From Brevibacterium sp. (GTDB taxonomy: Bacteria > Actinomycetota > Actinomycetes > Actinomycetales > Brevibacteriaceae), in the NCBI GenBank assembly GCA_031179165.1, contig JAPSIC010000005.1, positions 1 to 58,410 of the forward strand: a stretch of 58,410 nt of DNA, in the 5' to 3' direction. Shown one piece after another: positions 36,836-40,112 of the stretch. A program made the translations under genes and the position numbers. Position 1 is the first letter of the stretch. The number at the start of each line of letters is the position of its first letter. The notes under the pieces were generated by a model. The model did not search any database and was not told the DNA's origin. It worked only from the letters and a program-made list of their open reading frames with translations.

Positions 36836-37435
36836 ATGGTGAAATCCGCCCGTTCTCGCAAGTTCAAAGCTGTCCTCGCCGGCGGCATCGTGCTCGGCAT
36901 CGGGGCTGCGGTCACGCTCGCCGCGTGGACCGACAACGAATGGGCCGAAGGGACCTTTGGGGCCGGTTCATTCAATATCCAAGGCAGCCCTGACGGCACG
37001 ACCTTCACCGATCACGAGAGCGCCGACGGTGCCGCACAGCTGACCTTCGACCTCGATGGTGGTGACCAGCTGTCTCCAGGAGACAGCGTTGCCGCTCCGT
37101 TCGTTCTTCGGCTCGACGCGACGACGACATATGATGCGACGGTGGCCCTTGAAAGTGCCACCGGTGGGGGCGACAATCCGGCTGCCCTGACCTATGGGAT
37201 CGTCCAGGTCGCGAACGCCGCAGCCTGCACAGCCACGGCTACGGGCACTCAGATCATTCCGGCCGGCACAGCGCTGAACTCGACGACGGGTGCCGCGGAC
37301 TTCAATCTCACTGCCGGGGCCACCGGCCAGCCCGGAACGCCGGTGACCCTGTGCTTCACCGTCACTGCGGGTGACACGCTCACGGAAGGTCAGAATACGA
37401 CCGCTCAGTGGCAGTTCGCCGCGACCTCGGTCTGA
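36836..37435 (+). CDS. Alternate-type signal peptide exported protein (SipW/TasA-like)
   Basis: A 199-residue exported protein. Its N-terminus has basic residues, then AVLAGGIVLGIGAAVTLAAW followed by TDNEWAEGTFGAGSF, the pattern of alternate or SipW-dependent signal peptides. The rest is a Thr/Ala-rich beta-type domain with two cysteines, resembling a TasA/camelysin-like fibre subunit. CAAGGAGCC precedes ATG 36836. It is followed by a similar protein and a SipW-type signal peptidase, so it is most likely a substrate of that peptidase and part of a surface or matrix structure. Function in this organism is inferred. Confidence 0.8.
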   Translation: MVKSARSRKFKAVLAGGIVLGIGAAVTLAAWTDNEWAEGTFGAGSFNIQGSPDGTTFTDHESADGAAQLTFDLDGGDQLSPGDSVAAPFVLRLDATTTYDATVALESATGGGDNPAALTYGIVQVANAAACTATATGTQIIPAGTALNSTTGAADFNLTAGATGQPGTPVTLCFTVTAGDTLTEGQNTTAQWQFAATSV

Positions 37436-37452: not shown

Positions 37453-38115
37453 ATGCGGTTTTCGGACGAATCGCCACGAAGACGCCGACTGATGCGCCGG
37501 CGCCGCCAGCTGCGACGGATCAGGGCCATTCTCGCCGGTGGGCTGGTCTTCGGCATCGGATCGGCGGCGACGGTGGCTGCCTGGACCGACACCGAGTCGG
37601 CTTCCGGATCATTCACCGCCGGTCGATTCGCGATCGAACTCTCAGTCGACGCGAATTGGAGCAACTCGCGGGAGATGACCTTCAACGCCGGAGGAATGTT
37701 CCCGGGGAAAGTCGTCTATGCTCCGGTCGTGGTTCGCACCAGCGCCGATACCACACTGAATGGCCAGATCTCGGTCACCGGCGAGGGAATCTCGGGGACC
37801 CCGAATGCTGTTGCTCAGTCGCTGTCGTACAAGACGGTGACTCGGACCTTCGCCTCGGCGGCAGAGGCCACGGCTGCTCCCTGCGATGACTCGGCGTTCG
37901 CTGCCGGTTCGGATTATGTTTTCGGCTCTGCTTCGAACAGTCGGTCCCTGCAGACGGCGGCAATCGGTGCGACGAAGCAGTCCATCCAGGCTGCAGCCGA
38001 TTCCGTCCAGTTCTATTGCTTCAGGGTCGAGCTTTCCGCCAACGCACCGAGCGCTGCACAGGGGCAGACCGCCACGCACACCTGGACGTTCAACGCGGAA
38101 TCCGTGGCGCCTTGA
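37453..38115 (+). CDS. Second alternate-type signal peptide exported protein
   Basis: A 220-residue protein, paralogous in its N-terminus to the preceding one. After an Arg-rich start (RRRRQLRR) comes AILAGGLVFGIGSAATVAAW followed by TDTESASGSFTAGRF. The mature part is Ser/Ala/Thr-rich with two cysteines. ATG 37453 lies 17 bases after the previous stop with only a weak ribosome site. GTG 37408 (overlapping the previous gene) and ATG 37492 are alternatives; all retain the signal. It lies two bases before the signal peptidase gene. Probably a second subunit of the same exported structure. Confidence 0.78.
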   Translation: MRFSDESPRRRRLMRRRRQLRRIRAILAGGLVFGIGSAATVAAWTDTESASGSFTAGRFAIELSVDANWSNSREMTFNAGGMFPGKVVYAPVVVRTSADTTLNGQISVTGEGISGTPNAVAQSLSYKTVTRTFASAAEATAAPCDDSAFAAGSDYVFGSASNSRSLQTAAIGATKQSIQAAADSVQFYCFRVELSANAPSAAQGQTATHTWTFNAESVAP

Positions 38116-38117
38116 CC

Positions 38118-39500
38118 ATGCCCCGTACACCCAGGAGGCGCCCGATCGCCTGGATCGGCGGGATTCTTCTCAACATCGTCGCCGTCCTCGGTGTGGTATG
38201 CATCGTGCTCGTGATCCTCGGCATTGTGTCCAATGTGTCGATCATGATGTTCCGCACGGGTTCGATGAGTCCCACCATCACCGCCGGCTCGATCGCCCTC
38301 GTCAAGGAGATTCCCGCGGAGGAGATGGCTGTCGGCGATGTCGTTACCGTCGACCGCGGTCCGGATGTGCTGCCTGTGACCCACCGAGTGATCACGATCC
38401 TCGACACCGATGGGGGCTCCGGACGTGTCACTTTCGAGATGCGCGGTGACGCGAACGAAGCCAAGGACCCCGAACCATACACCGCGCAGACGGTGCGCCG
38501 GGTCATGTTCTCCGTGCCCGGGCTGGCCCCGATCATCCAGGAATTCCGCAATCCGTATGTGCTCGGCGGCATCACCATCGGTGCGTCACTGCTCGTCGTG
38601 TGGGCGTTCTGGCCCCGTCGTGATGAGGATGAGAATGACGAGAGTCCAGCCGACGAGGGCGGTCACGGCGGGAAATCGGGTGCGTCGAGTGCCGAAGTGG
38701 ACGATTCGGGCACCGAGGCGGGAGTTGAGAGCAAGGAATCGCGTGACGGCCGGCGGTCCGTGGCGTCAGAGCTGTCCTCGCCACGGTCGCCGAAGCACGC
38801 CATGGCCCTTCCGGCTGTTGCCGTAGTCCTCGTCGCGAGCGGCGGTCTGGCCCCGCCGGAACCCGCCGCCGCCGAGGCCCATGGTCGATTCCTCCACCTG
38901 CGCGCGATCGGCGATGAAGCCGAGATGCTCAGCCTCACTCCGGGTTCATCGGCGAACTGGATCGTCGACATCTGGGCAGATGCTCCCGATCCGGGAGAAG
39001 TGTCCGTGGAGATCGGCTCGGGAAAGATTGCGATGCCTCTGGCGGAAGAACTGCTCGTCGATGTCCGTGTCTGCCCACAACTCGTTTCCATGGACGAGTG
39101 CCCTGGGGGAACGACACGCCCGATCACCCGGGTGCCGCTGAGCGAACTCGGGAGTGCTCCTGATCATGACCGAGCGATCCTCGAGATGCCCAGCGATGAA
39201 CAGCTGCGCATCCAGGTCACGGTCTCCATGACGGCCGGAGCCGATGCTCAAGCCATTGCCGGGCAGACCAGTGGGGTGCGAGTGACGGCGATCGGCCAGG
39301 GAGAGGAAGTTTCCCTCGGTCTGGGCGACCCGGGACCGGGAGATCCAGGTCCCGGAGATCTTGGCCCGAGTCAACCCGGCCCGCCTGGCCAGCTGCCGTG
39401 GACTGGCGTCGAAGGGTGGCAATGGCTCCTGCTGGCGGCGGTTCTGCTCATCGGAACCGGTTCGGCAGTCGTGATACGAACGCGCAAGAGTTCACGGTGA
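38118..39500 (+). CDS. SipW-type signal peptidase I fused to an LPXTG surface domain
   Basis: A 460-residue fusion. Residues 1-175 are an ER/SipW-type signal peptidase: helix 13-38, catalytic Ser49 in TGSMSPT, and His89 in VTHRV, where eubacterial enzymes use Lys. A second helix (about 155-172) follows. An acidic cytoplasmic linker leads to an internal signal-like helix at about 228-250 ending in AAAEA. Then comes an exported domain of about 160 residues with a Cys pair, a GDPGPGDPGPGDLGP stretch, and a sortase signal: LPWTG (426-430), helix and RTRKSSR tail. The normal SipW length is about 190. Start and stop are clean in one frame. It should process the two upstream proteins. Confidence 0.82.
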   Translation: MPRTPRRRPIAWIGGILLNIVAVLGVVCIVLVILGIVSNVSIMMFRTGSMSPTITAGSIALVKEIPAEEMAVGDVVTVDRGPDVLPVTHRVITILDTDGGSGRVTFEMRGDANEAKDPEPYTAQTVRRVMFSVPGLAPIIQEFRNPYVLGGITIGASLLVVWAFWPRRDEDENDESPADEGGHGGKSGASSAEVDDSGTEAGVESKESRDGRRSVASELSSPRSPKHAMALPAVAVVLVASGGLAPPEPAAAEAHGRFLHLRAIGDEAEMLSLTPGSSANWIVDIWADAPDPGEVSVEIGSGKIAMPLAEELLVDVRVCPQLVSMDECPGGTTRPITRVPLSELGSAPDHDRAILEMPSDEQLRIQVTVSMTAGADAQAIAGQTSGVRVTAIGQGEEVSLGLGDPGPGDPGPGDLGPSQPGPPGQLPWTGVEGWQWLLLAAVLLIGTGSAVVIRTRKSSR

Positions 39501-39527: not shown

Positions 39528-40112
39528 TCAGGTGAGGTTGCGGCAGTTTCCGCCGATTCCGGCCAGCAAGCCAGCATTGGTCGCGACGGAGGCATGGTCC
39601 GATCGCCAGCCGCTGTCATGGTCGACGGAGAACGCGATCTCGAGTTCGCTGCCGAGTCCGAGCAGTCCACCGAGGAGGTTGGTGGGCACGTCCGTTCTGT
39701 AGGTGTTGTTGCCGGTGGAGGTGGTGTTGGCACTGAGGCTGAATCCGGTCAACGGGGCCAGCACCGAGCCAAGACCACTGGTCGATGCCTCAACGGTGAC
39801 GTCGTCGAGTTGATAGCCGGCGGGCAACTGCCAATAGATCCTGACCCGAGCACCGATGCCGAGCACACCCGGGAGGAATTCGCAGCTGCGAGTCAGGGCC
39901 GGTGCCGGGACCGTCGCGGCCGAGAACGAGCCCGAGGCTGCTTCTGTGCCGGTCCACGACGCCGCGGTCCCGTGAACATGGGTGGGAAGTGCGATCCCGG
40001 CGAGGAGAACGCCGGTGGCACACACCATGGTGAGAAGCACGGGCGCTGTCCGTCGTGTGGTTCGGGTTGTCATGGCAGGTGAGCCGTTCTCTGCGAGTCG
40101 TTGAGGGTTCAT
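39528..40112 (-). CDS. Exported protein with SipW-type signal sequence
   Basis: A 194-residue protein with a hydrophobic segment at about residues 24-45 followed by GTAASWTGTEAASGSFSAA, the same W-T-x-x-E-x-x-x-G-x-F motif as in the two SipW-dependent proteins encoded on the other strand. The mature part is a small beta-rich domain with two cysteines. AGGATGGGAC precedes ATG 40112; a start at 40073 is possible. It is convergent with the signal peptidase gene, 27 bases away, and is probably another substrate of it. Confidence 0.72.
   Translation of the reverse strand: MNPQRLAENGSPAMTTRTTRRTAPVLLTMVCATGVLLAGIALPTHVHGTAASWTGTEAASGSFSAATVPAPALTRSCEFLPGVLGIGARVRIYWQLPAGYQLDDVTVEASTSGLGSVLAPLTGFSLSANTTSTGNNTYRTDVPTNLLGGLLGLGSELEIAFSVDHDSGWRSDHASVATNAGLLAGIGGNCRNLT

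Follow-up and report, generated by a model that had tools for sequence, protein, structure and literature searches.

Why should a signal peptidase and what looks like a wall-anchored surface protein be made as a single polypeptide? The question is raised by a gene of Brevibacterium sp. (assembly GCA_031179165.1), which lies at 38118..39500 on the forward strand of contig JAPSIC010000005.1. The window analyzed here is this entire contig of 58,410 nucleotides, and the assembly, which is 87.8% complete, comprises 247 contigs totaling 3.46 Mb. Among named species, its closest relatives are Brevibacterium celere, B. yomogidense and B. daeguense. Read from the ATG at 38118 to the stop codon at 39498–39500, the window sequence gives one 460-residue frame without internal stops, in which a SipW-type signal peptidase is followed by an acidic linker, a signal-like helix, a beta-sandwich domain (the C-domain), the motif LPWTG, another helix and a basic tail. 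This confirms the domain order (peptidase, signal-like helix, exported-type domain, LPWTG with anchor) that an earlier note had read in this DNA. On balance, we favor the answer that the fusion, the third gene of its operon, is the sortase-anchored base of a TasA-type fiber, joined to the fiber's own peptidase.

The operon was examined as the immediate context of the fusion. Two genes stand directly upstream on the same strand, at 36836..37435 and 37453..38115, and each encodes a TasA-like secreted protein with a SipW-type signal peptide (TIGR04088, 36.9 and 37.9 bits, respectively, against a cut-off of 19). Only 2 bases separate the stop of the second gene from the ATG of the fusion; for the start of this second gene, ATG 37453 was chosen, with GTG 37408 being in frame too. 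The two families match each other with an hhalign probability of 99.9, and they provide the only two TIGR04088 matches over the cut-off in the source genome, where two further ones fall below it. The link between peptidase expression and fiber anchoring suggested in the earlier note is supported by two SipW-type substrates directly upstream and by a C-domain that looks TasA-related.

The possibility of a chance frame or an assembly accident was rejected, as 24 of the 57 genomes searched in the genus keep the whole order in frame. Some match at E 0.001 was obtained in 37 genomes; the remaining 13 match in the peptidase part, in another protein's sorting tail, or in each of these at separate places. 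The 24 fusions are 45–72% identical to the window protein (window row excluded), and alignment columns average 82% identity in the peptidase and 68% in the C-domain. At E 1e-10, the first TasA-like protein is present in 26 of the 57 genomes, namely the 24 with the fusion plus G001 and G034. In these two (L031 and L030, respectively), both TasA-like genes and sipW are found without the C-domain; the SipW frame stops after a short linker, and a gene for another secreted protein comes next.

The same domain order recurs outside the genus. The C-domain was detected in 42 of 396 genomes of the order, including 26 outside the genus, in a search that scored up to nine first-look candidates per genome, such that the tallies may be low. 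All 28 C-domain places outside the genus were inspected, of which 12 are fused and 16 are separate genes. A split frame in close relatives, which by the earlier note would have refuted its reading, was seen in none of the 24 genus members; the separate genes belong to the wider order. A sipW match lies in the same stretch for 27 of the 28, the exception being L073 on a 3.4-kb contig; in L062 a contig end leaves the match incomplete, and in L066 it is weak. Of the separate genes, 15 of 16 sit beside a visible sipW, within about 0.5 kb and on the strand of sipW, on either side of it. Every separate copy is preceded by a hydrophobic signal-like stretch, as judged by eye, and for this reason we favor the C-domain as an exported, sortable protein. 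The fusion and the stand-alone gene thus resemble alternative arrangements of a single surface protein that is sortable and tied to sipW. As to the number of fusion events, a quick tree of 56 rows required six changes of the fused label, with just one forced by the starred branches; it omitted L062, L066 and L073, which lack a full SipW match, and scored L088 as 'none' despite its fused frame.

Two side observations concern the layout. Genomes G310 and G369 hold, besides the fused copy (L054 and L053), a further C-domain as a gene of its own (L069 and L071), next to another sipW. Among 72,556 plasmid records, 11 matched, none with a single place covering 80% of the query. On the Pseudarthrobacter psychrotolerans plasmid NZ_CP047900.1 (L099:3269-5116), one annotated coding sequence comprises a TasA-like part, SipW, the C-domain and LASTG. 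This triple fusion is doubtful, with the TasA-like end looking frame-shifted; SipW and the C-domain are fused there too.

The peptidase half contains a SipW/S26B domain with two membrane helices (residues 12–166, 38151..38615). It scores 61.5 bits against TIGR02228, a model of endoplasmic reticulum/archaeal-type signal peptidases (cut-off 51.85), 46.9 bits against NF046067, the Bacillus SipW equivalog (under the cut-off of 190), and 17.3 bits against PF10502 (under the cut-off of 22.9). As judged from these scores, it is SipW-like, and not the Bacillus SipW equivalog. Ser49, His89 and Asp111 are unchanged in 24/24 genus members of the alignment, and we take them to be the Ser-His pair with Asp of the SipW/S26B family. 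The structure model is poor near Ser49, where residues 39–63 have predicted local distance difference test (pLDDT) values below 50. A public record of a protein with the same fusion bears the label 'signal peptidase I' only.

The hydropathy profile of the window protein has four peaks, starting at residues 16, 147, 228 and 435, and basic residues are found at 3–8, 167–168, 209–227 and 454–460. Between the second and third peaks lies the acidic, poorly conserved linker (residues 168–224, 38619..38789), which is predicted to be cytoplasmic and for most of which pLDDT is below 50. The internal signal-like helix follows, with basic residues ahead of it (residues 225–250, 38790..38867). Because the four segments and the positions of the basic residues fit, we propose a topology in which the peptidase would be outside, the linker inside, the C-domain outside and the tail inside. 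The third peak exceeds the threshold in 19 of the 24 genus members and falls below it in L004, L009, L010, L011 and L013, with L004 having its second peak under the threshold as well; by a weaker 12-residue measure, a hydrophobic core precedes all 52 C-domains. An internal translation start, at an ATG in codon 229 before the helix, was considered and rejected, as this codon is ATG in one of the 24 members and GTG in six, and the sole member with a Shine-Dalgarno-like word upstream (L012) has TTC there.

What, then, is the C-domain? The model shows a beta sandwich (residues 253–402, 38874..39323) with pLDDT of 84–93 per ten-residue block, except for 62 in block 321–330. C319 and C328 are both invariant (38/38). 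No match to PF12389 or TIGR04088 was found, so the domain is not filed as a TasA/camelysin member. Profile and fold comparisons speak, if weakly, for a remote relation. In a genome search that scored up to ten first-look candidates per genome, so that tallies may be low, the C-domain profile led to camelysins with E 3.6e-6 and 2.6e-4 per genome, which is weak, with a chance-looking match at 3.3e-4. Comparison with the TasA-type family by hhalign scored 32.7, where shuffles reached 15.9 at most, with a weak probability of 56%. A sequence search of solved structures gave no lead (best E 0.43), and TapA was not among the 50 matches listed in the C-domain comparison, which excludes nothing. With the sequence motif W/F-T/N-D, seen in the upstream substrates, taken as a stand-in for the N-terminal donor strand, 51 of 52 C-domains lack it in the region ahead, and the lone match (L024) looks like chance. 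On this reading, the C-domain looks distantly related to the TasA/camelysin fiber subunits, apparently lacking their donor strand.

The anatomy of a sorting signal is complete at the C-terminus, with the LPWTG motif (39393..39407), a hydrophobic helix and the basic tail RTRKSSR, the latter two at 39420..39497 (hydropathy peak at 435). The wall-sorting signal of the earlier reading is supported, in that LP[WR]TG, helix and basic tail are present and the motif is kept in 24/24 genus members. The window protein scores just under the cut-offs of two curated anchor models (PF00746, 18.7 against 20; TIGR01167, 15.0 against 15.9), and PF00746 is matched by five of the 24 at E 0.1. Near the C-terminal end, 50 of 52 C-domain proteins carry L[PA]XTG, the exceptions being L062 (IAASG) and L076 (LSSTG); the tails of L072, L074, L078 and L079 were taken by eye, and L073 has a truncated tail because its contig stops there. 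Relatives outside the genus have LAXTG or LPXTG.

Class E is the sole sortase found in the source genome (247 bits, cut-off 160), within an incomplete assembly. A single sortase is present in 14 of the 24 fusion genomes, and the five of these typed besides the source genome, including the single-contig G003, G029 and G039, all gave class E. According to the available part of PMC5148588, class E sortases of Actinobacteria are described for LAXTG, which their substrates usually carry, unlike the fusion; these substrates, e.g., chaplins, resemble it in having a C-terminal sorting signal, and no peptidase fusion is mentioned for them there. A wider motif, [L/I/V][S/A/P]XTG, is merely presumed for a Bifidobacterium class E sortase in the part of PMC8603203 at hand. 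Because the genus has LP[WR]TG and its typed single sortases are class E, the genus may have a class E sortase that recognizes LPXTG-type signals. In G019, G043 and G049, other proteins match the window protein in the C-terminal spacer and sorting tail only, hinting at more sortase substrates in the genus.

Taken as the base of a fiber, the fusion would work as follows. Given the gene order and signal type, the SipW half would trim the two upstream TasA-like proteins, while the internal signal would lead the C-terminal half out through the membrane. The C-domain would then be freed, with either an ordinary type I signal peptidase or the SipW half of the chain making the cut, and the class E housekeeping sortase would join it to peptidoglycan at LPWTG. 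Being a sandwich without a donor strand, the anchored C-domain could receive the N-terminal strand of a TasA-like protein and not pass one on; it would hold the end of the fiber and tie it to the wall. The domain order, the operon and the conservation are computed findings; export, cleavage, sorting and anchoring, strand capture and fiber formation are steps that we infer from them.

Regarding the cut, the earlier note had proposed self-processing at AAAEA. AAAEA is not a conserved site, and some fused members (e.g., L055) have no evident AxA site after the helix. Moreover, the source genome encodes two ordinary type I signal peptidases, adjacent on another contig (TIGR02227, 137 and 114.5 bits, cut-off 47), with Ser and Lys motifs readable in both. 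For these three reasons, a self-cut at AAAEA lacks support, and self-processing in general is one option among several.

We would give some, if limited, credence to a bifunctional chain, in which the peptidase that matures the fiber subunits also releases its own C-terminal half; that half, a TasA-type acceptor lacking a donor strand, is then sorted to peptidoglycan by the class E sortase at LP[WR]TG and captures the fiber. If true, this would make a Gram-positive donor-strand fiber with a covalent wall base, and the gene itself would set the ratio of peptidase to anchor at one to one.

Among the alternatives to a fiber base, the C-domain might be anchored to the wall as an adhesin or for binding the matrix, being expressed together with the fiber without holding it. 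We regard this as unlikely, since the company it keeps is close: 27 of the 28 C-domains outside the genus are beside sipW, all 24 genus fusions co-occur with the first TasA-like gene, and the C-domain profile leads, if weakly, to camelysins. It is rather improbable that the fusion is never cut, leaving the C-domain tethered to the membrane SipW, where it would gather substrates near the active site or regulate the peptidase. Such tethering would suit the one-frame order kept in 24 genus genomes and members such as L055 that have no clear AxA site; yet at 16 of the 28 places outside the genus the domain is a gene of its own, such that tethering is unneeded, and the sorting motif kept in 50/52 would be needless for a purely tethered domain. 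Least probable, we think, is a cut in cis, with SipW severing its fused C-domain at the internal signal, a reading that overlaps the fiber base, for which the cutter is left open: peptidase and internal signal do share one chain, with both on the outer face in the proposed topology, but AAAEA is unconserved, the SipW-type W/F-T/N-D motif is missing ahead of 51/52 C-domains, and two ordinary peptidases are at hand.

Downstream of the fusion, on the reverse strand, the gene at 39528..40112 encodes a secreted protein whose signal (ASWTGTEAASGSF) is SipW-like. It has no NCBIfam match and, from a reading of its sequence, is a possible further component; in L030, L031 and L099, a gene similar to it comes after sipW and has the same orientation as sipW.

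How the fusion as fiber base compares with known systems is described here within the available portions of the respective reports. In the tapA-sipW-tasA operon of Bacillus subtilis (PMC9674648, PMC10151520), as here, a dedicated SipW and a TasA-type subunit share an operon with an accessory protein, TapA, which is thought to aid anchoring and assembly. TapA, however, is made on its own and has been proposed as the donor of its N-terminal strand, and a sorting motif goes unmentioned there, whereas the Brevibacterium domain, apparently without such a strand, bears LPWTG and forms one chain with SipW. The Bacillus cereus sipW-tasA/calY/capP system (PMC13082335) likewise combines two camelysin-type subunits with a wall-localized accessory protein, CapP; unlike the C-domain, CapP is a separate protein that anchors to the wall through a disordered part, and the system is called sortase-independent. 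In Clostridium perfringens sipW-bsaABCRSD (PMC7395162), SipW accompanies BsaA, which forms polymers, and a gene for a sortase is close by, but pellicle and BsaA profile were unchanged in the srtB mutant and an LPXTG-like motif was not predicted in BsaA. A SipW-LPXTG fusion was not found in a literature search with most subscription papers and bioRxiv preprints outside its coverage. Within these sources, SipW with TasA-type fibers is already known from Bacillus and Clostridium.

According to the same portions of these reports, in which TapA and CapP are separate proteins, the attachment of TasA-type fibers to the cell is poorly understood. In Brevibacterium, the fiber genes are accompanied by a conserved wall anchor of the sortase type, through which attachment becomes testable, and a likely sortase substrate is united with an export enzyme in one chain. 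This pairing of domains suggests a way in which these bacteria could tie biofilm-type fibers to their own surface.
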